From positions 1-24,585 of IMG/VR virus record IMGVR_UViG_3300031227_000404: a stretch of DNA of 24,585 bases; one strand, written 5' to 3'. The notes beneath the pieces were generated by a model. That model was not told the DNA's origin, made no database searches, and worked only from the letters and a program-made list of their open reading frames with translations. Positions 2,880 to 24,099 of this stretch are shown here, one piece after another; position 1 is the first letter of the stretch; the number at the start of each line of letters is the position of its first letter. The translations under genes and the position numbers were made by a program. Source of the DNA: a virus.

Positions 2880-4707
2880 TAACGAAAAAAATACGGAGAT
2901 GTTGAGGCGACTCAGGGACACCCCGTTAAGAAGCATAGAGGACTTAGATAATTACTTAAGGGTTTTCTATGGAGTTTATCTGGCCAAAGTCCCAATGGAA
3001 GAGGGGAATTCTGCTCCTTTGCTTTTTGTTTGGGATATCTACAAAACAGCTTTATGGGGCGGTATTGATGATCTATACAATTTTTTAGGTGTAGCTGGTC
3101 GTGGTGCTCAAAAGAGTTTGTCTTGTGGGGCTTCAGAGACATTGCTGATGACTCATGATAAGAATCGTGATTTTTTCCACATGGCCTCCATTAAACAGCA
3201 AGCCAAGGTCACGTATAATTACGTCCAAAGCTTTTATAAAAAACCTATCCTTTCTGAAACAATTGACAAATGCATAATGTCTGAAACAAGGAGTCGGTTT
3301 AATAAACAATTGGTTATTGGGACTGGCACAATGGATTCTGTTAATTCTTTCCATGGTTCTGTTTGGCAGGATGAGGTTGATTTGACTCCTCCGTCTGTTT
3401 TTAGGGAGTCTCGGGGGATGTTAACGGCTCAAGAGGGGAAGATGCCCCTTAATGTTTGCATCAGTTCTAGGAAGTTTGCTTTTGGGAACATACAAGAGTT
3501 GCTGGACAAGGCTTCCCGTGGCAATTATCCTTTAAAAATTCACAAATGGACAATACTGGAAGTTACAGAAAAATGTAAAGAGAAGCGTTCTGGTGAATAT
3601 GGTGTTAATTATTATGTAGATGAGGAATTGTTAGAGGCGATAACAGAAGATCAGTTCCTGGCAATAAAGGAGCCGTTTAGAAGGGAAAGGTTTGGCAAGG
3701 TAGTTGGATATAAAAATTGTGGGAAGTGCGGAATCTTTTCTTTTTGTCAGGGAAGGTTGAAAAAGCAAGAAGAAGATAACAAATTTTTGCAACCGATTGA
3801 ACAAGTTAGGAATCTATTTTTTACTGATGATCTTTGGTTCTTTTTATCCCAAAGGCTTAACCGAAAACCTTCTTCTAAGGGAACGGTCTTTCCCATGTGG
3901 AGTGAAGAATCTCATGTGAAATCTTATGAAGAAATGTATCGTATTCTAACTGGTGAGCCGTATAAAGATGGGGAATCTTTAACATTAGATCAATTAGTTA
4001 CAGAGTTTGAAAAATATAATTGTCCTGGGTATATCGGGGTCGATTTTGGGTTCAATTGCGCTGTTTGTTTGTTGGCGTTTGTTGATGGCTCCGATAGGAT
4101 TTATGTCGTTGATGAATATGTATTTTCTGGGGGCTCTGACGCTGATTTTGCGTATGCCTGTAACAAAGAGTGGGGGGCATACTCAAAGCTTATGACAAAG
4201 GGGTTCCCAGATATTGCTAGTCCTGGCGGGATTAAGGAGTTTGCTAAATATTTCCCTATGGTTAAAGATGACAAAGAATACAACAAGATGAGTAAGATCC
4301 CTGAATATAGGTCTGGTTGGATAAGGAAAATGTTGAAAGGCCCTGGGACTAATTTGGTGAGGCTTTATACGAGTTACAATGTCGCAAAGCTCAGGGAAGA
4401 AATGCCATTTTATCACTATAAAATTGATATAAAGTCTGACGAACCTAGTGATATTATTGAAAAGAAAAACGACCACGCAATTGATAGTTTGGGAAATATT
4501 TTGGTGGGGCTGTTCGGTCTTACAAATCAAGAGGTTACAGTAGCTTTAGATTCTGGGCTCGATCATATCGAAAGTTCTTTGCCGATGAAGGCCCCTACAG
4601 CGGTTGAATTGGCAGATTTTGCTGGCAGGGGTTCTGAGTTCGTGGCAGAACGCGTTCCAGAAGATAACGATGTTTCTGACGGTGAGGTTGATTTTGATTT
4701 TGCTTAA
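2869..4707 (+). CDS. terL: terminase large subunit (TerL)
   Basis: A 612-residue packaging motor protein. The N-terminal ATPase has a degenerate Walker A, GVAGRGAQKS (74-83), and a Walker B, SVWQDE (164-169). The C-terminal RNase H-like nuclease has YIGVDFGF (Asp392), IYVVDEY (Asp415) and NDHAIDSLGN (Asp535, Asp539), all expected for a headful or cos nuclease. An unusual Cys cluster lies between the domains: Cys236, then NCGKCGIFSFCQG at about 283-294, possibly a metal site. The length is in the normal range for TerL. It pumps DNA into the prohead through the portal encoded 450 bp downstream. The start is translationally coupled to the upstream gene (ATG at 2869 before its TAA). Confidence 0.93.
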   Translation: MNPNNEKNTEMLRRLRDTPLRSIEDLDNYLRVFYGVYLAKVPMEEGNSAPLLFVWDIYKTALWGGIDDLYNFLGVAGRGAQKSLSCGASETLLMTHDKNRDFFHMASIKQQAKVTYNYVQSFYKKPILSETIDKCIMSETRSRFNKQLVIGTGTMDSVNSFHGSVWQDEVDLTPPSVFRESRGMLTAQEGKMPLNVCISSRKFAFGNIQELLDKASRGNYPLKIHKWTILEVTEKCKEKRSGEYGVNYYVDEELLEAITEDQFLAIKEPFRRERFGKVVGYKNCGKCGIFSFCQGRLKKQEEDNKFLQPIEQVRNLFFTDDLWFFLSQRLNRKPSSKGTVFPMWSEESHVKSYEEMYRILTGEPYKDGESLTLDQLVTEFEKYNCPGYIGVDFGFNCAVCLLAFVDGSDRIYVVDEYVFSGGSDADFAYACNKEWGAYSKLMTKGFPDIASPGGIKEFAKYFPMVKDDKEYNKMSKIPEYRSGWIRKMLKGPGTNLVRLYTSYNVAKLREEMPFYHYKIDIKSDEPSDIIEKKNDHAIDSLGNILVGLFGLTNQEVTVALDSGLDHIESSLPMKAPTAVELADFAGRGSEFVAERVPEDNDVSDGEVDFDFA

Positions 4708-4729
4708 TAAAATTATTGAGTAAATATTA

Positions 4730-4767
4730 TATAATATATGGATACTATTAAGAACGGAGGCTAGTAA
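4730..4767 (+). promoter_or_regulatory. possible -10 element and strong RBS before the 127-residue ORF
   Basis: The 60-bp gap after terL is very AT-rich and contains a TATAAT at 4730-4735 but no good -35 at 16-18 bp. It also carries a strong ribosome binding site (ACGGAGG, 4753-4759) placed correctly for the ATG at 4768. The RBS is clear; the promoter is only a possibility. Confidence 0.35.
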
Positions 4768-5151
4768 ATGTCGACATTAAATTTTTATTTAAAATTGTAT
4801 GGGTATAGCGACGAAGACGACGTTGTAACGCCACAAGAGCAGGATTTTAATTGGACTAGGGACATAAAAGATATTTCAACGACCCTACAAGGGGATATGA
4901 CCTATACCCTTTCTGGTTCGGGAGATACAACAATCCCGCTTCCAACAACTGCGATTAACTTTTTGTACATCGAAGTTGACGGTACTGTCTATTTGAAGTT
5001 GAACGGTGATACTGGGATTACCCAAGTTATTTCACCTTCTGAGGCTGGAGAGAGGGACGGGCTTTATTTTAAGCGCGGGAGTGTAACGAGCATAGTCATA
5101 ACAGTTCCTGGGGCCGACGATGTCAGTGCTAAAATTATAATGGGAGTGTAA
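4768..5151 (+). CDS. hypothetical beta-rich protein between terL and portal
   Basis: A 127-residue acidic protein with alternating hydrophobic/polar segments (INFLYIEVDG, VYLKLNG, SIVITVPG, AKIIMGV) that suggest a beta-sandwich or jelly-roll-like fold. It has no Cys and no membrane segment. It has its own strong RBS and sits between the packaging motor and the portal. Small beta-rich proteins in virion gene blocks are often decoration, stopper or fibre-associated proteins, so a virion role is plausible. I do not recognise a specific family. Confidence 0.65.
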   Translation: MSTLNFYLKLYGYSDEDDVVTPQEQDFNWTRDIKDISTTLQGDMTYTLSGSGDTTIPLPTTAINFLYIEVDGTVYLKLNGDTGITQVISPSEAGERDGLYFKRGSVTSIVITVPGADDVSAKIIMGV

Positions 5152-5154
5152 TAC

Positions 5155-6864
5155 ATGTTTGAAAAAACAAGAAATTTATTTTCAAAGACGTACGAAATTG
5201 TAGAGGGGAGGCTGGACGAATATATTTTGAAGGCCAGGGCTTCTTCTTTTGACAATTTAGAAAAGTACGCTATTGATTTTGAGGAAGATGAGAATTCCTT
5301 GGGCTCTGCTCAGGGTTGGTTGGAGAAATATTCCTACATCAATTTTGATTTCCTATACCAGATGTCTGTGAATAGTGTATTCACAGCTATCCTTTTAAGG
5401 AGAGTCAACGAGATTGCTTCGTTTGCTCATCCTCAAAGGAATAAGTATGAGCCAGGGTATATGATTAAAAAACGTGATGAAAAAGAGGAAGTAAACGACA
5501 AGGAACAATCAGAGATCAAAGAGCTTGAAGAGTTTATTTTTAACACTGGAATGGAAGAGGGTAGAAGTAAAATAACAAGAAACCCAAAGAATTTTGAGGA
5601 GTGGGTGAGGCTCACCATAAGGGACCGATTAATTTATAACATGTTAGCCACAGAGCGTGTTTTTAAACAGGTTCAAAAAAAGGAAGATAAATTGCCAGGG
5701 CTTCATTCTTTTTATCATGTTCCGTCTCACAGCATCAGGTATGCCGTGAACACAAGTGACGATAGCAACCTTGGAGACGCCAAAAAGATTAAAGAACAAA
5801 TAAAAGCTTCTATGTTAGACAACGTATTCACCAACAATCCTTCTACTCGCACGGAAATCCAAAAAAGAATTACAGCCGAAGACATTTGGTACGTTCAGTT
5901 ACATCATCAAAGGATTATCAATGTTTTTAACAATGAGCAATTGGTTGTCAAGCAAGGCAATTTAAATGCGGAGCTTGATAATAACGGGTACTCTCAAGGT
6001 GAATTAGAGTTGGCGGTTAATTTGATCAGTGCTCATGTGTTCACGGAAACTCATAACCGTCTTTATTTCACACAAGGATTTTCTAATAAGGGGATTCTGG
6101 TTATTAAGCAAAGCATGAACCGTAAAGTAATGGAAAGGTTTAAGCAACAATTCCGTCAACAAATGCAAGGAACGGCAAATGCGTTTAGGGTTCCTATTTT
6201 ATCTGGGACAGATGTCAGTTGGGTCCCCCTTCAGGCCAATATGAAAGATATGGAATGGGAAAAGTGGACTAACTATTTGATTAAATTAATTACGGCTATT
6301 TTCCAAATGTCCCCTCAAGAAATCAATTTTGATATTTCAAAAGAAGGTTCTGGCCTTGGCGATAGTGGTGAAAGACAAAAGAGCATTATCGCTCATTTTA
6401 AAGAGACAGGCGTACAGCCCCTTTTGAGATGGCTAGAGGGTGTTATAAATAAAGAAATTGTTCGTTACTATAACGAAGACTATTATGCGAAGTATGTTTT
6501 TAGGTTTGTCGGCATAGATAATGAACAAGAAAAAGAGGAAGTCGAAAGGCTTACCAAAGAAGTTCAATTTTATAAAACTGTTAATGAGGTGAGGAAAGAA
6601 AGAGACTTGGAAGAATTGAGTGAGGGTGGAGATATTATTCTTAGCCAAGTCTATCTCCAAGCTCAACAATTTGCTGAGATGGGTGAGGGTGGTTTTGACG
6701 GAGAGGGGCCTGTTGATCAATCAGAAAAGCAATCTTCTAGTGACAAGACCCCAGAGATGAAGGATGTCATGTCTCAAGACCCTGGAAAGGCCAAAAAAGC
6801 AGTTAAGAAGTCGGTCGCAAGTCTTTCTAATAAGCTCCATAAGGTCGAGTGGTACAATAAATGA
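5155..6864 (+). CDS. phage portal protein
   Basis: A 569-residue protein placed between TerL and the minor head protein, the standard position for the portal. The sequence has the hallmarks of the HK97/SPP1-type portal superfamily: an N-terminal alpha/beta region with DFLYQMSVNSVFTAILLRRVNEIA, a wing with charged insertions, and the late segment ITAIFQMSPQEINFD followed by GLGDSGERQKSI, where portals have their stem and clip helices. Lys/Ser-rich residues end the chain. Twelve copies form the ring through which DNA enters and leaves the capsid. It starts four bases after the previous gene and overlaps the next by four (ATGA). Confidence 0.9.
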   Translation: MFEKTRNLFSKTYEIVEGRLDEYILKARASSFDNLEKYAIDFEEDENSLGSAQGWLEKYSYINFDFLYQMSVNSVFTAILLRRVNEIASFAHPQRNKYEPGYMIKKRDEKEEVNDKEQSEIKELEEFIFNTGMEEGRSKITRNPKNFEEWVRLTIRDRLIYNMLATERVFKQVQKKEDKLPGLHSFYHVPSHSIRYAVNTSDDSNLGDAKKIKEQIKASMLDNVFTNNPSTRTEIQKRITAEDIWYVQLHHQRIINVFNNEQLVVKQGNLNAELDNNGYSQGELELAVNLISAHVFTETHNRLYFTQGFSNKGILVIKQSMNRKVMERFKQQFRQQMQGTANAFRVPILSGTDVSWVPLQANMKDMEWEKWTNYLIKLITAIFQMSPQEINFDISKEGSGLGDSGERQKSIIAHFKETGVQPLLRWLEGVINKEIVRYYNEDYYAKYVFRFVGIDNEQEKEEVERLTKEVQFYKTVNEVRKERDLEELSEGGDIILSQVYLQAQQFAEMGEGGFDGEGPVDQSEKQSSSDKTPEMKDVMSQDPGKAKKAVKKSVASLSNKLHKVEWYNK

Positions 6865-7076
6865 GCGTCGTAAAGATTTATTGCGAACATGGCGAATGTA
6901 TTGAAGAGGTTAAAGAGGAGCTGATAAAAGCGTTCTCAAGTAACATGGATGCGTCTGATCGTTTTGCAGATCCGCTTATGGAAGAGCTGTTAGAGGAAGG
7001 TGATAGTTGGTATAATTTTTATTTTTTAGAAATGGTCAAAAAAATTATCGAGGTTTTATCTAGCGATGTTGATTAA
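6861..7076 (+). CDS. small acidic hypothetical protein
   Basis: A 71-residue, strongly acidic, probably helical protein (EECIEEVKEELIKAF, EELLEEGDSWYNFYFLEMVKKIIEVL). It overlaps the portal stop (ATGA) and the next start, so it is translated as part of the portal and minor-head unit. No family recognised. Confidence 0.65.
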   Translation: MSVVKIYCEHGECIEEVKEELIKAFSSNMDASDRFADPLMEELLEEGDSWYNFYFLEMVKKIIEVLSSDVD

Positions 7077-8658
7077 CAAAAGCAAGAGAAAAAAAATAGA
7101 GAAAACAATTGATAAGTTTTTCAACGCCATAATCTTCAAAATTGCTGGCTCAAGTGAGATTACGGCTTCAGAGCGTAAAGAGCTGGAAGAAGAAGGCATT
7201 ATCGGGATTTACGAGGCGCAAAGGCCCTACTCCGAAGAAGCCTACTACATCGGTAGAATTAGGAACCCGTTGGCTGGCAAATACGAAAAAAGCGATTTAA
7301 ACAAATTCAGAGTTTTTGACTCTAGGAATTACGTCCCTCTGGGTGAAAAAGAAAAGTTCGCCATTGCCAACGCAAAAGAATCTATGGGTGTTCACATAGC
7401 AAAATTAAAGGCGAATGTAAAGGGCTCTGTTTTGGGTTCTATTGCCGATGCCAATAATGATTTCGCCCAAAAAACATTAATGCAATCGCTTAGTAGCATA
7501 ACAGAAGACAATATAGCCAAAAGAAAAGGCGTTAGGAAATTGGCTGTTGATTTAAGAGATGCTACTGGTGATATGAATAGGGATTGGCAGAGGGTGGCTT
7601 CTACAGAATTAAGTTCTGCTTTCAACAACGGGGCCGCAGATGCGATTGCCGCAAGGAACAAGGGCAAGGACGCGGGGGAAGTTTTGGCATATAAAATTGT
7701 CTCAAAAGATGCGGCTTTATGTAAGTATTGTAGGGGGTTCTATTTGATGCCTAATGGTGAAAACAAAGTTTATAAGTTGTCACAACTAAAGGCCAATGGG
7801 ACTAATTATGGGAAGAAGGCTTCTGAATGGAAGCCAGTGATCGGTCCGACTCACCCGAATTGTTTTATTGATGGGAGGGTAAAGGTTTATACTAGTACTG
7901 GTTGGAAACAAATAAGGGATATAAAAATTGGGGAATTTGTTTTGTCTCATAAGGGTAAATTTAAGAGGGTTATCAATACAATCCAAAATCAGGTACAGCA
8001 AAATCCTGAATTGTATTCAGATAAATACGGTGGAGATGTATACAAAATTACATATAATTTGAAGAGAGTTTTTGGTGGTAAAAATAATTTAAAAAGAGTG
8101 TTAAAGGTCACCCCCGACCACAAGTTTTTAACACAAAGGGGGTGGATAGAAGCGCAAAATTTATCCAATAAAGATGAATTTTTTCAGCCGTATTTTGTTT
8201 CTGATTGTTGTAATGACGATGTGATATTCCTTCCTTATGGCGAATGCAGTGGCAAATGTAAATGCGTAAAAAGGGGAAATTGGGTGGTGGGGAACAGAAA
8301 GGGTAAAAATACGGAGGAATATCGTCAAAGGGTTAGAGAGCAAATGGAGAAAAGATACGAAGGGTCTTCTTTGAAGTTGAATCATGGTGACAGATATGGG
8401 TTTGATAATGGTGTCGAGATTCTATCGGTAGAGAAATTCAAACATGGAAATTTAAAACATGGGAAGTATCGCGAATGTACGCTATACGATATAACCGTAG
8501 AGGACGATGAGAGCTTTATCGTTGAGGGAGTGGTTTCTCATAATTGCCGCTGTACGTTGGTGGAATTGCCTAAAGGTTGGGGGTTTAAAGAAGGGACTCA
8601 AAGGCCGACTTTCGAGGGTATGGATTTCAACATATTGAAAGAACAAAAAACAAAATAA
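7066..8658 (+). CDS. minor head / head morphogenesis protein (SPP1 gp7 / Mu F-like) with in-frame intein
   Basis: The 530-residue precursor consists of an N-extein (1-265), an intein (266-493) and a C-extein (494-530). Spliced, the 302-residue product has the Mu F/SPP1 gp7 domain: RDWQRVASTELSSAFNNG around residue 170, DAALCKYCRGFY (CxxC) near 215, and the terminal motif HPN-CRCTLVELPKGW, which is restored only after splicing. Proteins of this family sit inside the head near the portal and are needed for head assembly or DNA ejection. The unspliced protein would have the HPNCRC motif split by 228 residues and would probably be inactive. The start at 7066 overlaps the preceding stop. The assignment rests on the motifs and the position after the portal. 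Confidence 0.9.
   Translation: MLINKSKRKKIEKTIDKFFNAIIFKIAGSSEITASERKELEEEGIIGIYEAQRPYSEEAYYIGRIRNPLAGKYEKSDLNKFRVFDSRNYVPLGEKEKFAIANAKESMGVHIAKLKANVKGSVLGSIADANNDFAQKTLMQSLSSITEDNIAKRKGVRKLAVDLRDATGDMNRDWQRVASTELSSAFNNGAADAIAARNKGKDAGEVLAYKIVSKDAALCKYCRGFYLMPNGENKVYKLSQLKANGTNYGKKASEWKPVIGPTHPNCFIDGRVKVYTSTGWKQIRDIKIGEFVLSHKGKFKRVINTIQNQVQQNPELYSDKYGGDVYKITYNLKRVFGGKNNLKRVLKVTPDHKFLTQRGWIEAQNLSNKDEFFQPYFVSDCCNDDVIFLPYGECSGKCKCVKRGNWVVGNRKGKNTEEYRQRVREQMEKRYEGSSLKLNHGDRYGFDNGVEILSVEKFKHGNLKHGKYRECTLYDITVEDDESFIVEGVVSHNCRCTLVELPKGWGFKEGTQRPTFEGMDFNILKEQKTK
7861..8544 (+). other. mini-intein (228 residues) within the minor head protein
   Basis: This is a protein-splicing element. Block A starts at Cys266 (CFIDGRVKVYTSTGWKQI), Block B is VTPDHKFLT (Thr349, His352), Block F is LYDITVEDDESFIVEG (473-488), and Block G is VVSHN (489-493), followed by Cys494 as the +1 residue. 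These are the class 1 intein residues: Cys1, TxxH, penultimate His, terminal Asn and +1 Cys. There is no LAGLIDADG pair. The region between B and F (about 75 residues) holds a Cys-rich part (CC, GECSGKCKC) and a basic NUMOD3-like stretch (RKGKNTEEYRQRVREQ), perhaps the remnant of a lost homing endonuclease. It most likely self-splices post-translationally. Confidence 0.93.
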
Positions 8659-8675
8659 AAAAAATAGGGGGAAGT

Positions 8676-9251
8676 ATGGGCAGACCAAAAAAGGAAAATT
8701 CTTTAAAAGGTCAGGTTTTAGATCCTTTAGAGGAAGAAGAGAAGAAATTAGAAGCTCAATTAAAAAAGGTTCAGACTTGTAATAAGCTGATTAAAGCACA
8801 AAATCCTTTTTCTGTTGACATCCCCGATAAGGGGCTTCTAGGCTCTTTAATTAAAAATTTCAGGGAATTCATCAAAACTCAGATTTTGTTGACTCAAGAG
8901 GGCACAGACGGTGCTTCTCGTGCTTGTTGCCCTGCTTCAGGGAGCGGTTTCAGCGATGAAGAGGTGAAGACGCTAAAAATGTTTGCTAAAAGAGCCGTCA
9001 GTGTCGCCACCCCAAATAAAAAAGAGAAAAAAATAAAAACAGGGGTTGATTTAGAGAGTGGTGATAGGCTATTAATAAAAAGTAAGGCGGTTTTTGATAA
9101 GGGGGTTGAAGGTAGGGTGTTGTTGGCGGCTGGGGAGAGAGTTTTCTTTAACAAAAGCATAGATAATGATTTGATTTTGGTGATTGATGAAGAGGGCTGT
9201 GAAGGCAAAATCAGCAAAAACAAAGTAGTGAAAGAGGGCTCAGATGTGTGA
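8676..9251 (+). CDS. hypothetical protein, possible head-associated
   Basis: A 191-residue protein with a good RBS (AGGGGGAAGT). The N-terminus is basic (MGRPKKE) and runs into an acidic/lysine coiled-coil-like segment. The middle contains ACCPASG. The C-terminal 65 residues (DRLLIKSKAVFDKG, EGRVLLAAGERVFF) look like a small beta-barrel (SH3-like). It follows the minor head protein and overlaps the next gene by 8 bp. A scaffold or head-completion role is possible from position but is not shown by sequence. Confidence 0.65.
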   Translation: MGRPKKENSLKGQVLDPLEEEEKKLEAQLKKVQTCNKLIKAQNPFSVDIPDKGLLGSLIKNFREFIKTQILLTQEGTDGASRACCPASGSGFSDEEVKTLKMFAKRAVSVATPNKKEKKIKTGVDLESGDRLLIKSKAVFDKGVEGRVLLAAGERVFFNKSIDNDLILVIDEEGCEGKISKNKVVKEGSDV

Positions 9252-9534
9252 TAAACAAATACAAATTGGCACTAAAGTTTTTTATGTTCAAAGGGACCCG
9301 ACCCTGGAAAAACACTATTGCTTTGGTTGCGCCCCTGTTGTTGAAATCTTTACGTACGATTCAATAGAGGGGGTTGGGTCTTTTGATATTGATAATGTAG
9401 AAAGGGTTATTGTTGAGGTCGATATAAATGACAATGGGGAAACAGAGTACAGGTTAGATTTGAACAAGGAAGAATTCATGTTGGAAATTACTGATTATAT
9501 CATAAGACTGAATCAAGTAGTAGGAAATATTTAA
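9244..9534 (+). CDS. hypothetical protein
   Basis: A 96-residue acidic protein with a Cys pair (CFGC) near residue 28 and beta-like segments (VERVIVEVDIND), ending in a helix. Its ATG lies inside the end of the preceding gene, indicating translational coupling. No family recognised. Confidence 0.6.
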   Translation: MCDKQIQIGTKVFYVQRDPTLEKHYCFGCAPVVEIFTYDSIEGVGSFDIDNVERVIVEVDINDNGETEYRLDLNKEEFMLEITDYIIRLNQVVGNI

Positions 9535-9558
9535 TAAATAAAAGAAAAGGAGAGCAAA

Positions 9559-10209
9559 ATGGCTGACAAGAAGAAGGGCACAGGCACAGTTGTTAATGGT
9601 AAATTTGGTGGTGGCAATGGACCTAAAGGGCCACCAACCGACGCAATGGGGCAAATGTTGCAAATGGTTCGCTCACATGAAATCGGACTGAAGATGATTG
9701 CCAAAAAAATAGCAGAAATCGAAGAGGGCGTTTTTACTAATTCCCGTTACCATGATTTGATTACTTTGTCTATCAAAGATGTTGTCTTTGAAAAGCTTGG
9801 GGTGACTGAAAAAGAATGGGATAAGATTGTCGAAAAAACTGCCAAAAAGATTGGTGAAAGCCAAGAAGAAGACTTTAATAATAGGAATAGCTTGTTAAAG
9901 GTGGACCGTGTCGCAAAGGATAAGGATTGGGTTATGGTTTCTTTTGTTGGCAAGATTGAAGGTGAGGCATTTGATGGTGGCTCCAGCAATGGGACTCATG
10001 TGGTTCTAGGAGATAAGAAGTTTTTGCCAGAATTGGAACAAAGTTTAGAAGGCAAAAAAGCTGGTGATGAATACGACGTTGAGTTGGTTTTCCCTGAGAG
10101 CTATGCCCCTAATTTGAAGGGGAAAAAGTCTGTTTTTTCTGTTAAGGTGATCTCGGTAAAAGAAAAAATTGAGCTTGTAAAAGGGCCAGAACCAGGACCT
10201 AAAGAATAA
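9559..10209 (+). CDS. trigger factor/FKBP-type peptidyl-prolyl isomerase domain protein
   Basis: A 216-residue protein. Residues 1-30 are a Gly/Lys/Pro-rich tail and residues 31-110 are helical. Residues about 114-205 read as an FKBP domain of the trigger-factor type: VMVSFVGKIEGEAFDGG, VVLGDKKFLPELEQSLEGKKAGD and LVFPESYAPNLKGKKSVFSVKV, the usual pattern of an F-G loop, LG-x-x-F-x-P-x-LE and FP-x-x-Y-x-x-x-L-x-GK. FKBP domains catalyse cis-trans isomerisation of prolyl bonds or act as chaperones. A phage copy placed after head genes may help virion proteins fold, or the domain may be a virion part. The ribosome-binding tail of host trigger factor is not recognisable. Strong RBS (AAAAGGAGAGC). 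Confidence 0.8.
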   Translation: MADKKKGTGTVVNGKFGGGNGPKGPPTDAMGQMLQMVRSHEIGLKMIAKKIAEIEEGVFTNSRYHDLITLSIKDVVFEKLGVTEKEWDKIVEKTAKKIGESQEEDFNNRNSLLKVDRVAKDKDWVMVSFVGKIEGEAFDGGSSNGTHVVLGDKKFLPELEQSLEGKKAGDEYDVELVFPESYAPNLKGKKSVFSVKVISVKEKIELVKGPEPGPKE

Positions 10210-10252: not shown

Positions 10253-11464
10253 ATGATGCATTGTCCTATTTGTGGTAATAGTGATGGTATAATTAAGAAT
10301 GGGTTTAATAGAGGGACACAGAGATATAAGTGTATATTTTGTGAGAAGGGTATTTCTCCTGTTATCTCACATGATGAAGAAGTTCTGGAGCAAAACGTAC
10401 GATTCAAAAAGGATGCCCAACGGTATCAAGACATAAGTAGGATAGAGCGTAAGTCTTTCAGGGAACAGGCTAGGATCGAGAACTCCCTTTGCGGATACAA
10501 CAAAGAGCTTATCCAAATATTGAACCAAAAAAATCTTGGCCACCTCGTTAAGTCTCATGAAAATGCAGATGGCAATGATGCCGTTGCGATTGTTCATATT
10601 TCTGATACTCATTTCAATGAGTTGGTAGATTTAGAACATAATAAATATGATTTCGTAATAGCCTCGAAAAGGCTTCATAAATTTGCCCAAAGAATAAAAA
10701 TGTATTTGGGCCCATTGAATATAAAGAATGTTTTTATTGCTTTGACTGGCGACCTTCTTAACAGCGACAGAAGGTTAGACGAAATCCTCAATATGGCCAC
10801 CAACCGTAGCAATGCAACTTTTTTGGCTGTAGACCTGCTCAAGAGTTTTATCTTGGACCTGAATGATTGTTTCAACTTGTCTATAGGTTGTGTTTCTGGG
10901 AATGAAAGCAGGCTAAACAAAGAAACTGGGTTTACAGATATTTTGGCTACTGATAATTATGATTTCACAATTTTTAATATTTTAAGATACGTTCTTGGTA
11001 ATTTAGAAGAAGAAAGTGGTATCAATTTTATTTCGGGTGACCCTGTTGAGTTATTGGTTAATGTTGCGGGTCAGCACGTCTTGTTGACTCACGGTTTGAA
11101 TATGGATAAGGACATAGAAAAGAAGGTCCAGCAAGTTGCGGGTAGGTATTCGGCGCAAGGCCAGCAAATTGATTACATGATTTTTGGCCATACCCATAGT
11201 TGCAGGATCGGGGACATATATTCTAGGTCTTCCAGTTTGGTTGGCTCTAACGCTTATTCTGAGCGTGGATTAAATTGTAGCGGCAGGGCTAGTCAGAACG
11301 TCTATGTCTTTTATGGAGACGGTAGTAGGGACGGAATAAAGGTAGACCTACAAAACACAGAGGGGGTTCCTGGTTATCCTTTAGAGGTGATGGAGGATTG
11401 TTATAACCCCAAAGCCCCTTCGAAGAATTTGCAAAAACGAACCATAATGGAAATCGTTATATAA
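10253..11464 (+). CDS. zinc-ribbon metallophosphoesterase
   Basis: A 403-residue protein. The N-terminus is a four-Cys zinc ribbon (Cys4, Cys7, Cys27, Cys30) with HCPICGN and RYKCIFCEKG, like the ribbons of IS1-type transposases. After a helical linker comes a calcineurin-like phosphoesterase domain: HISDTHFNE (Asp118, His120), LTGDLLNSDRR (Asp167), SGNES (Asn217), LLTHG (His280) and FGHTHS (His313, His315). These are the metal-binding residues of the superfamily, complete and in order. The substrate is unknown: DNA ends, nucleotides and phosphoproteins are all possible. The zinc ribbon suggests nucleic acid binding. It is the first of three metallophosphoesterases in the window. Start at 10253 or the adjacent ATG at 10256. 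Confidence 0.85.
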   Translation: MMHCPICGNSDGIIKNGFNRGTQRYKCIFCEKGISPVISHDEEVLEQNVRFKKDAQRYQDISRIERKSFREQARIENSLCGYNKELIQILNQKNLGHLVKSHENADGNDAVAIVHISDTHFNELVDLEHNKYDFVIASKRLHKFAQRIKMYLGPLNIKNVFIALTGDLLNSDRRLDEILNMATNRSNATFLAVDLLKSFILDLNDCFNLSIGCVSGNESRLNKETGFTDILATDNYDFTIFNILRYVLGNLEEESGINFISGDPVELLVNVAGQHVLLTHGLNMDKDIEKKVQQVAGRYSAQGQQIDYMIFGHTHSCRIGDIYSRSSSLVGSNAYSERGLNCSGRASQNVYVFYGDGSRDGIKVDLQNTEGVPGYPLEVMEDCYNPKAPSKNLQKRTIMEIVI

Positions 11465-14817: not shown

Positions 14818-15669
14818 ATGAAAATTCTATATGTTACAGATCTTCACGGGGACTATAAGAAATACAAAAAGGTTTTAGACATCGCAAAGAACGACCACTA
14901 TGATGTGGTTGTGAATGGCGGGGATATGCTCCCCAAGTGTGCTGGCGACATGCATAAAATTCAGTCGAATTTCTTGTCTTGGCTGGGCACCTCTCACTTC
15001 CCAAAATACAAAGAAAACAAAATTTTTTATTTAGGTATGTTGGGGAACGATGACTTAATGGTTTTTGATAGCGACTTCTGTTCTTTGGAGGGGAGGAACC
15101 AATACTTCAAGGATTTGTCACAAAGCAAAGTTACTGTTGGAGGCATTGATTTCATAGGCTGTAATTATGTCACCGATTACCCCTTTCGTTTGAAAGACAG
15201 GTGCCTGAGAGACACAAAGGAAAGCCCTATGTGTCCCCAATATGGTGGCGGTTTATATTCTGAAGTCGACGGGAGTTTTTACAATATAGAGGATTGGCCT
15301 GAGGCAATCAAGAAAATACCAACGCTGAAACAGAAGCTGGATTCTTTGCCTGTCTCGGCTTCCGATAAGGTCATTTACGTCATACATAACCCACCCACTG
15401 GGTGTGGGCTTGATGTACTGAGAGATGGCAGTTCTGTTGGATCTAAGTCGGTTTCTGATTTCATTATGAGGAAGCAACCTCTTTATAGTTTGCATGGTCA
15501 TGTCCATGAGTCTCCTGATGTCTCTGGTAAGTTTTATGCCTATCTAGACAATACGGTCTCTATTCAGCCAGGGCAATTGGGGCTGAGTCACTTAAGCTAC
15601 GTCCGTATTGACATAGGGAGAGAAAACCATAAGGAACATAAATTTGACGCATATGTCGTCCCTGTTTGA
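14818..15669 (+). CDS. metallophosphoesterase (second copy)
   Basis: A 283-residue calcineurin-like phosphoesterase starting directly with the domain: ILYVTDLHGDY (Asp8, His10), VVNGGDMLP (Asp36), MLGNDDL (Asn77), VIHNPP (His190), and LHGHVHESP (His228, His230), ending with IQPGQLG. All metal-binding motifs are present. It resembles YfcE/MJ0936-type small phosphodiesterases more than the large first copy at 10.3 kb, with which it shares only the motifs. Possible substrates are cyclic nucleotides, nucleotide second messengers or DNA ends. First gene of the new transcription unit, with RBS TAGGGAG. Confidence 0.87.
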   Translation: MKILYVTDLHGDYKKYKKVLDIAKNDHYDVVVNGGDMLPKCAGDMHKIQSNFLSWLGTSHFPKYKENKIFYLGMLGNDDLMVFDSDFCSLEGRNQYFKDLSQSKVTVGGIDFIGCNYVTDYPFRLKDRCLRDTKESPMCPQYGGGLYSEVDGSFYNIEDWPEAIKKIPTLKQKLDSLPVSASDKVIYVIHNPPTGCGLDVLRDGSSVGSKSVSDFIMRKQPLYSLHGHVHESPDVSGKFYAYLDNTVSIQPGQLGLSHLSYVRIDIGRENHKEHKFDAYVVPV

Positions 15670-17986: not shown

Positions 17987-18300
17987 TGAGATTGAAAGAG
18001 GACAAGAGCTCTTGGAATTCTAGTGGTGTCATGCGTAAGGACGAAAGAAACACAAAGATAGAATTTAAACAAATGAGACATAAGTCTAAAAAGAATAAGA
18101 AGAGATGGTGTCGGGGCAAGCCTGGAGTGGAGCACGACAAGGTTTGGGATAAAAAGGTCAGGTACAATCACGATTTTTGGACTTTGCTTTGTAAAAATTG
18201 CGGTAGGGAGTTCGATATTTGGTTTGACGGTAAAATCTGTGGCAAGCCCAAACCCGAGGGCGTGTTGTTAGCAGAGAGAGAAATGAGGGATAAGCGATGA
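17986..18300 (+). CDS. hypothetical basic protein with CxxC
   Basis: A 104-residue protein with start ATG 17986 overlapping the previous TAA (TAATG); an in-frame TTG at 17974 is rejected. It is basic throughout (KSKKNKKRWCRGKPG), with a late CKNCGREFDIWFDG and CGKPKPEG suggestive of a metal site. Role unknown. Confidence 0.55.
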   Translation: MRLKEDKSSWNSSGVMRKDERNTKIEFKQMRHKSKKNKKRWCRGKPGVEHDKVWDKKVRYNHDFWTLLCKNCGREFDIWFDGKICGKPKPEGVLLAEREMRDKR

Positions 18301-18848
18301 ATAAGATTTACCTAACAACTGATACTCATTTTGGCCATCAGAATATAGTGGAGTTTTGTGGCAGGCCCGACAACCATGAGGAATTAATGGCCAATGGTTT
18401 CAAGGATTTGTGCCCAGAACACACCCTTATTCATTTGGGGGATATCTGTATGGGGAACGATCAACTTCATCATGAAAAATATATTATGCCATTGACGTGT
18501 AAGAAGATTCTTGTTAGGGGGAACCACGACAGGAAGAGCAATTCTTGGTACTTAGATCATGGTTGGGATTTTGTTTGCAGGCAGTTCGTTGACAAATATT
18601 ATGGCGTAAAGATTCTTTTTAGCCATAAGCCTCAAGTTTGGGATGGTGAGTATGATATTAATATACATGGTCATTTTCATAACACTGATCATCGAAGGAA
18701 AGAGCCTGAATTGAATAAGGTTTTGACTTTGAAACATATTCTATTGGCTCTTGAGTACAACAATTATAGGCTTTATTCTCTTAGGGATATTTGTGAGCCC
18801 ATTGCCGCTTTAATGTCTGAAAATAATAAGGAGGAGTTATGTACGTAA
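18297..18848 (+). CDS. metallophosphoesterase (third copy, short)
   Basis: A 183-residue, minimal calcineurin-like phosphoesterase: YLTTDTHFGHQNIVEF (Asp9, His11, His14), LIHLGDICMG (Asp49), LVRGNHDRKS (Asn76, His77), ILFSHKP (His110) and NIHGHFHNT (His126, His128). The GHQNIVEF segment and short length resemble phage and bacterial small phosphoesterases annotated as YfcE-like or YmdB-like. It starts in the last codon of the previous gene (ATGA overlap) and its end overlaps the next. With the copies at 10.3 and 14.8 kb it makes three in 9 kb, each divergent from the others. Confidence 0.87.
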   Translation: MNKIYLTTDTHFGHQNIVEFCGRPDNHEELMANGFKDLCPEHTLIHLGDICMGNDQLHHEKYIMPLTCKKILVRGNHDRKSNSWYLDHGWDFVCRQFVDKYYGVKILFSHKPQVWDGEYDINIHGHFHNTDHRRKEPELNKVLTLKHILLALEYNNYRLYSLRDICEPIAALMSENNKEELCT

Positions 18849-21260: not shown

Positions 21261-21860
21261 ATGCAGGGGATAACTCTTTGGTTCACGGGACTGCCCTGTA
21301 GCGGCAAGACCACAATAGCAAAAAAATTAATTAGGTCTATCAGACAACTAGGCTTCTTCCTAGAGCCCTTTGATGAGGGCTTACGAGTAGAGCATCTTGA
21401 TGGAGACAATATCCGTCGGGGCCTCACTGCTGACTTGGGGTTTTCTAAGGAAGACCGCCGTAAGAACCTGGAGCGTGTTGCTTTTGTTGCAAAGCTGTTG
21501 ACTAAGCATGGCGTTGTGGTGCTTTGTACGTTTGTTTCTCCCTATAAAGACACGAGGAAGTGGTTAAAGCAGGAAATAGGGAGCTTTGTAGAGGTATATT
21601 GCGATTGTTCCGTGGAGGAATGTATTAAGAGAGACGTCAAGGGAATGTATGCCAAGGCAATCAAAGGGGAAATCAAGGAATTCACTGGCATCAGTGATCC
21701 CTATGAGGTCCCTAAAAAGCCAGATCTAGTCATTAACACTGAAAAGGAATCAGAGGACGATTGCGTCAAGAAGGTCTTGGACTATTTGGTCAAGAAGATC
21801 TGCGATCAGGAACAACAGAAGTTGCTGTCGGAAAACCATAAGTTGTGCAAATGCACCTAA
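21261..21860 (+). CDS. cysC: adenylylsulfate (APS) kinase
   Basis: A 199-residue CysC-type kinase, which phosphorylates APS at the 3' position to make PAPS, the sulfate donor. Visible: P-loop GLPCSGKT (10-17), LDGDNIRRGL (46-55, Asp/Asn/Arg of the APS-binding site), FSKEDRRKN (61-69), FVSPYKDTR (91-99), the lid motif KRDVKGMYAKAIKGEIKEFTG with SDPYEVP, and PDLVINT near residue 160. All catalytic motifs look intact, and length matches free-standing APS kinases. A DUF2061-like membrane protein follows, as it does in many bacteria. No sulfotransferase or sulfurylase is visible, so its product must be used by host enzymes or by unrecognised genes. RBS ACGGAGGAAT. Confidence 0.92.
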   Translation: MQGITLWFTGLPCSGKTTIAKKLIRSIRQLGFFLEPFDEGLRVEHLDGDNIRRGLTADLGFSKEDRRKNLERVAFVAKLLTKHGVVVLCTFVSPYKDTRKWLKQEIGSFVEVYCDCSVEECIKRDVKGMYAKAIKGEIKEFTGISDPYEVPKKPDLVINTEKESEDDCVKKVLDYLVKKICDQEQQKLLSENHKLCKCT

Positions 21861-23349: not shown

Positions 23350-24099
23350 GTGACAGATAAAAACAATAACTCTGGGAACAATAACTCTGGGAGCATGAAC
23401 TCTGGGGACAGGAACTCTGGGTACAGGAACTCTGGGAGCATGAACTCTGGGGACAGGAACTCTGGGGACATGAACTCTGGGTACAGGAACTCTGGGTACA
23501 GGAACTCTGGGAGCATGAACTCTGGGTACAGGAACTCTGGGTACAGGAACTCTGGGAACAATAACTCTGGGAGCAGGAACTCTGGGTACAGGAACTCTGG
23601 GAGCAATAACTCTGGGGACATGAACTCTGGGAGCAATAACTCTGGGTACAGGAACTCTGGGAGCAATAACTCTGGGGACATGAACTCTGGGGACTTCAAC
23701 ACGAACGAACCAAAAATGCGGATGTTCAATAAAGACTGCGGGTTCACTAGAACAGAACTTTCAAATCAAGGCAGACTCCCACACAGTAGCGAATTTTATC
23801 TAACAAAATGGATAAGAGAATCTGATATGACTGATGAACAAAAAGTTAATGATCCTGATTTTCACGTTAAAGAAGGAACGCTTATTACGTTTTCTAATGA
23901 AGAGGCATGGGCTAATTTTTGGAGAGACACAAGTGAGGAGAACAGACAGAAGTATTTAGATCTTCCAAACTTTGTCGCAGACATTTTTAAAGAAATTACA
24001 GGCATTGACGTTAACAAGCCAGAGGAAATGGTTGAGATTGATGGGAAGAAATATAGCAAATCAACACTTAAAGAGGCCATGAGGCTGTACGTTAGATGA
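23350..24099 (+). CDS. NSGxx pentapeptide-repeat protein
   Basis: A 249-residue protein with GTG start and strong RBS (AAGGAGGAAAAT). Residues 7-114 are 22 five-residue repeats N-S-G-x-x, where x-x is drawn from D/Y/S/N and R/M/N. This is the NxGxx type of pentapeptide repeat, expected to form a beta-helical rod. The C-terminal half starts DFNTNEPKMRMFNK and goes on to SDMTDEQKVNDPDFH, FANFWRDTSEENRQK-like text and LPNFVADIFKEITGIDV; this repeat-plus-domain plan resembles one I have seen in gut phage and bacterial proteins. The role is unknown; an adhesin or spike-like surface part is one guess. Confidence 0.75.
   Translation: MTDKNNNSGNNNSGSMNSGDRNSGYRNSGSMNSGDRNSGDMNSGYRNSGYRNSGSMNSGYRNSGYRNSGNNNSGSRNSGYRNSGSNNSGDMNSGSNNSGYRNSGSNNSGDMNSGDFNTNEPKMRMFNKDCGFTRTELSNQGRLPHSSEFYLTKWIRESDMTDEQKVNDPDFHVKEGTLITFSNEEAWANFWRDTSEENRQKYLDLPNFVADIFKEITGIDVNKPEEMVEIDGKKYSKSTLKEAMRLYVR
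23368..23691 (+). repeat. 15-bp tandem repeat array (22 units)
   Basis: AACTCTGGG followed by a six-base variable part recurs 22 times with no change in the 9-base core. The variable codons are only GAC/TAC/AGC/AAC and AGG/ATG/AAT. Identity at silent positions suggests recent expansion or gene conversion by slippage. Because the unit is 15 bp, length change keeps the frame. Confidence 0.9.

Follow-up and report, generated by a model that had tools for sequence, protein, structure and literature searches.

A probably splicing-competent class 1 intein, lacking its homing nuclease, in a MuF-type minor head protein gene of a virus

Here, we report a predicted class 1 intein in a minor head protein gene on a 24,585-nucleotide stretch of viral DNA (IMG/VR record IMGVR_UViG_3300031227_000404, positions 1 to 24,585; called the window below). 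The gene, a single uninterrupted open frame on the plus strand, follows a portal protein gene and one open reading frame (ORF) of 71 amino acids (Table 1). The open frame rules out a frameshift or an intron. An assembly artefact was rejected on a second IMG/VR contig (L001; 6351 bases) with 100% DNA identity to window positions 3418-9768, which may stem from a related sample and is only partly independent. Elsewhere in the window, a protein adjoining the head genes carries an FKBP-type peptidyl-prolyl isomerase domain (9559-10209; PF00254, E = 1.3e-8), and three ORFs are of the calcineurin-like phosphoesterase type (10253-11464, 14818-15669, and 18297-18848), the first also matching PHROG 284, a phage exonuclease. 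An adenylylsulphate (APS) kinase gene (21261-21860; PF01583, E = 2.2e-56) is probably a phage-borne sulphur-metabolism gene, and a pentapeptide-repeat protein is encoded at 23350-24099 (PF01469).

Table 1. Positions in the window of the portal gene, the intein-bearing head protein gene, and the parts of the latter (aa, amino acids)
Feature	Position	Strand	Basis
Portal protein gene, upstream	5155..6864	+	PF04860 (E = 8.1e-18); PHROG portal
Precursor gene, MuF/SPP1 gp7-like minor head protein with in-frame intein (530 aa)	7066..8658	+	ORF, PHROG, hhalign
N-extein, aa 1-265, ending in GPTHPN	7066..7860	+	Alignment to intein-less homologues
Conserved CxxC motif (CKYCRG, aa 219-224), MuF C-terminal region	7720..7737	+	Alignment
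Intein, 228 aa (aa 266-493)	7861..8544	+	PF14890, intein_Cterm, Foldseek of precursor model
Block A, CFIDGRVKVYTS, with Cys1 nucleophile	7861..7896	+	Aligned in three alignments of relatives
Block B, VLKVTPDHKFLT (T-x-x-H)	8098..8133	+	Thr and His invariant in alignment of relatives
Degenerate Cys cluster, SDCCNDDVIFLPYGECSGKC; putative leftover of the zinc-finger-like CxxC..CxxxC module seen in relatives that carry the nuclease	8200..8259	+	Three alignments
Putative helical remnant, NTEEYRQRVREQMEKRYEG, fused to NHGDRYG, the C-terminal border of the lost nuclease region; Vsr/DUF559-like domain of relatives absent between	8308..8400	+	Alignments
Blocks F and G, LYDITVEDDESFIVEGVVSHN, with penultimate His and terminal Asn	8482..8544	+	intein_Cterm match, alignment
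C-extein, aa 494-530, starting CRCTL; Cys494 is the +1 nucleophile	8545..8655	+	ORF, alignment

Direct profile evidence for the identity of the host protein was modest: the ORF had a PHROG head morphogenesis match (E = 2.5e-5) and a weak, below-cutoff match to TIGR01641 (phageSPP1_gp7; E = 0.0047), and Pfam family PF04233 gave no match in it. Profile-profile comparison (hhalign) of window-type exteins with intein-bearing PF04233-type homologues, in which PF04233 itself reaches E = 3e-17, returned E = 3.6e-6 and paired the CxxC plus the HPN ahead of the insertion point. Both cysteines of this CxxC (C219 and C222) are nearly invariant in one alignment, and the motif was found in 57 of 58 intein-less homologues. 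Because of the hhalign chain to PF04233-type proteins and the gene order after the portal, the MuF/gp7-type identity proposed in an earlier, sequence-only reading of this DNA appears well supported.

The insert scored above cutoff with PF14890 (Intein_splicing; E = 5.6e-12, 46.2 bits, cutoff 35.8) and NCBIfam intein_Cterm (TIGR01443; 27.2 bits, cutoff 15.6), while the N-terminal intein model TIGR01445 stayed below its cutoff (19.7 bits against 24.5). All class 1 residues are present, namely Cys266 (Cys1), the T-x-x-H of block B (TPDH), the C-terminal His-Asn, and Cys494 at +1; a class 3 intein is ruled out by the presence of Cys1. Block F is LYDITVEDDESF, and the His-Asn end is followed directly by Cys494 of CRC. 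The sequence-only reading had named blocks A, B, F, and G (Cys1, TPDH, YDITVEDD, and SHN; found here as Cys1, TPDH, LYDITVEDD, and His-Asn) and had proposed that the intein splits HPN from CRC, with Cys494 doubling as the +1 residue and as the first cysteine of CRC; the ORF, PF14890, the junction, and the fold match described next bear this out. Excision in silico reproduced its insert of 228 residues and its spliced length of 302, with the junction THPN/CRCTL, which aligns gap-free to intein-less homologues of Lysinibacillus, Bacteroides, and Chryseobacterium phages; 58 intein-less homologues are continuous across the insertion site. An AlphaFold model of the 530-aa precursor (29-sequence alignment, mean pLDDT 70.7) matched the gp41-1 intein 6qaz in Foldseek (E = 9.5e-7, TM 0.78 on target), as well as DnaB, DnaX, and RecA intein structures, as expected of a Hint fold. 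By profiles, residues, and modelled fold, the insert is confirmed as a complete class 1 intein on evidence far beyond chance.

If the insert were instead a bacterial intein-like (BIL) domain or an intein in decay, it would cleave, or stay put, without ligation, leaving the head protein as fragments or as a fused precursor. PT-HINT and Hint_2 profiles also score, below their own cutoffs, the fold matches of the precursor model include a BIL domain structure (2lwy), and the nuclease is already gone. However, every class 1 splicing residue is in place, including the +1 Cys and the His-Asn, intein-specific profiles score above cutoff, and the C-extein, only 37 aa long, joins a motif that is contiguous in homologues; we regard this alternative as very unlikely. 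Purifying selection on the splicing residues is not measurable, because the window allele is represented by one sequence only (L001 being identical at the DNA level). With a GC3 of 0.346, the insert falls near the bottom of the range seen in other window stretches (0.338-0.425), so composition is uninformative on recent arrival and gives no clear sign of it.

By alignment, the window intein is a nuclease-deleted form of a family with a Vsr/EDxHD-like homing endonuclease, which the sequence-only reading had missed. In same-site relatives of 330-430 aa, block B is followed by a CxxC..CxxxC finger, helices, and then a domain matching DUF559/MTES_1575/Vsr profiles (Pfam; DUF559 E down to 6.5e-9). 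EDxHD/Vsr-type homing endonucleases are reportedly treated in the 'Fractured genes' study of Dassa et al. from 2009. A structure model of one such intein (L016; mean pLDDT 74.5) matched the catalytic domain of I-Bth0305I (3r3p; E = 3.2e-3, prob 1.00, TM 0.66 on target), a homing endonuclease of the EDxHD type (PMC3943268); the L016 nuclease region found no match among PDB sequences with phmmer, and fold comparison was used instead. I-Bth0305I is intron encoded, whereas the domain of the relatives lies inside contiguous inteins. Both flanks of that domain align to the window intein, from which the intact domain itself is missing; homing-endonuclease profiles gave no score on the window intein, and Pfam gave no match on its middle region alone (8158-8470). 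Because remnants of the finger and helices are retained, we infer that the nuclease was lost here rather than gained elsewhere, leaving an intein that probably splices but cannot home by itself. The earlier label of mini-intein therefore holds in that no nuclease remains, but the element is not minimal: about 80 of its 228 aa are degenerate endonuclease-associated sequence. Minimal inteins comprise about 130-150 aa.

We thus read the insert, with a probability of about 0.9, as a class 1 intein within a MuF-type minor head protein, competent to splice but defective in homing and derived from a mobile family by deletion of the nuclease. Translation would give the 530-aa precursor, in which Cys266, helped by the block B TPDH, would start an N-S acyl shift; the N-extein would pass to Cys494, Asn493 would cyclise with the help of His492, and the exteins would be joined as THPN-CRCTL, releasing the 228-aa intein and leaving a head protein of 302 aa. 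The ancestor would have belonged to a mobile family whose Vsr/EDxHD-like nuclease repeatedly invaded this MuF codon. Deletion of the nuclease domain would have left the zinc-finger-like and helical remnant, and consequently the window element would now be inherited with its gene unless recombination moves it. Continued mobility would call for a nuclease acting in trans, encoded by a different element of this phage or by a co-infecting one. The retained finger/helix remnant and the nuclease-bearing copies at the same site in relatives are compatible with this, but the element has no nuclease domain and the window record, a fragment, yielded no further copy of either the gene or the intein, and we hold such mobility to be highly improbable.

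Relatives were gathered by scans with the intein plus short flanks and with the intein alone, and 83 non-redundant inteins remained once near-copies were removed. MuF-type proteins host 76 of the 83, a count over the best-matching loci of a MuF-derived seed that shows MuF as a major host, not its share of all inteins, with the MuF assignment checked by Pfam or PHROGs on a sample only. For L104, L126, and L016, no direct head-protein profile match was obtained, and assignment there follows motif and site. The insertion point precedes the first MuF CxC cysteine in 66 cases and the second in 4, and lies at an upstream CxxC-type Cys in about 6 (clear in L109 and L112; tentative in L303, L304, L319, and L331), and the remaining 7 inteins lie in other proteins. 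Among the proteins retrieved with MuF homologues as queries, some carried an insert at the same place and others did not. The viral-contig scan with the single host protein matched only one identical contig, the plasmid scan gave no match, and the genome-contig scan returned mostly inteins in other proteins (SufB, UDG, and methyltransferase-like by motif), together with two clear MuF-type cases (L177 and L187) and one likely one (L205).

On a tree of 68 MuF proteins, 10 bear an intein, and their placement requires 8 gains or losses, no fewer than 6 of them forced by well-supported branches; this patchy distribution is consistent with repeated invasion and loss. The identities of inteins and of their hosts are correlated (Spearman 0.49; as high in 0 of 500 permutations), so vertical inheritance may account for part of the pattern; in outlier pairs, the inteins share 55% identity or more and their hosts 27% or less, and the history may mix vertical descent with transfer. 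Every intein bearer on the tree has Cys at +1, a position held by E, D, T, S, or G in 13 of the 58 homologues that lack an intein (Fisher p = 0.19), and in the L015 clade the closest intein-less relatives have Asp there; this is only suggestive of splicing holding the +1 Cys in place.

These sites make MuF a supported intein hot spot. A broader proposal would have it phage-wide, with several cysteines of the conserved C..C..H..C.C region colonised by inteins with Vsr/EDxHD-like nucleases and splicing coupled to how that region matures, making head assembly responsive to redox or metal state; taken whole we think this unlikely, and its regulatory part is speculation. Conditional splicing of the window intein itself, distinctly unlikely in our view, would make it a switch, governed by redox or metal, that holds back head protein maturation, the split falling between the CxxC and CxC of a possible metal/redox site. 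It draws on the use, at the MuF sites found, of a Cys of the C..C..H..C.C region as +1 and on a 2004 suggestion by Ward et al. that intein excision could regulate head morphogenesis in a Methylococcus prophage (PMC517821). Yet regulation is not required to explain the coincidence: the +1 position of every class 1 intein must be Cys, Ser, or Thr, and conserved codons are the preferred targets of homing endonucleases. Nor is a fixed metal site general, since the first Cys is missing from 13 of the 58 intein-less homologues and both are missing from 7.

The sequence-only reading had judged a head morphogenesis host unusual, which does not stand against known cases. In Ward et al. (2004), a Mu-like prophage of Methylococcus capsulatus (Bath) is described with an intein in F (Mu gp30) without recognisable endonuclease (PMC517821). 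It resembles the window intein in its Mu F-type head assembly host and missing endonuclease but differs in being reported closest to archaeal IF-2 inteins (PMC517821), a comparison that covers its host protein and content; the Methylococcus intein was not found in our sample of 369 genomes of one class. The Gordonia phages Nordenberg, Lennon, Sitar, Thing3, Barsten, and SchottB carry an intein at the window's junction. Proteins of the Nordenberg/Lennon/SchottB type (L003-L005), annotated as MuF-like minor capsid proteins, have an identical junction (N/C...HN/CRCT), whereas their intein is 275 aa long with a different middle region in which the zinc-finger/nuclease remnant was not detected. The intein at this CRC junction is unannotated in the feature tables of the public records L003-L005. 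The gp41-1, Ssp DnaB, and Mtu RecA mini-inteins share the splicing-domain fold and residue pattern, but their hosts are replication or repair enzymes, and they are shorter than the window intein, which retains nuclease-associated remnants. Mycobacteriophage TerL inteins likewise recur at functional motifs of a phage packaging gene, though the host is a terminase (Kelley et al. 2016, PMC5050341); a search of the paper's main text found no term starting with 'head', 'capsid', or 'MuF' and no head protein named as an intein host. A systematic account of inteins in MuF, SPP1, minor head, or head morphogenesis proteins was not found in the open-licence literature and may be given elsewhere. The window intein is thus ordinary in its chemistry and known in its kind of host, and the MuF hot spot, apparently uncatalogued, is the more interesting part.

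Within one phage structural gene, the same site occurs empty, with nuclease-bearing inteins (about 330-430 aa), and with nuclease-less ones (283 aa, the 228 aa of the window, 193 aa in L327, and 173 aa in L330), a series on which the homing cycle could be tested outside its usual DNA-replication hosts. Automated metagenome annotation of MuF genes should expect inteins at HPxC/CRC, and intein-bearing precursors explain unusually long minor head proteins.

Several relatives deserve mention in their own right. L109 (ORF from 1) and L112 (ORF from 3236) each have two inteins per MuF gene, one at the CxxC and one at the CxC, and the first intein of L112 is only 129 aa long. The intein-bearing MuF-type genes L187, L205, and L177 lie in bacterial metagenome-assembled genome (MAG) contigs that are probably prophages or phage contigs; the L187 intein has about 146 aa and apparently Ser as its first residue. 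Related inteins with family 4 uracil-DNA glycosylase-like flanks (ITNxVK/C...HN/CRPPxNR), a host named by motif alone, were seen in L172, L174, and L178-L185 (Rokubacteria, Nitrospira, and other MAGs), the last group ranging in intein size from 146 to 352 aa.
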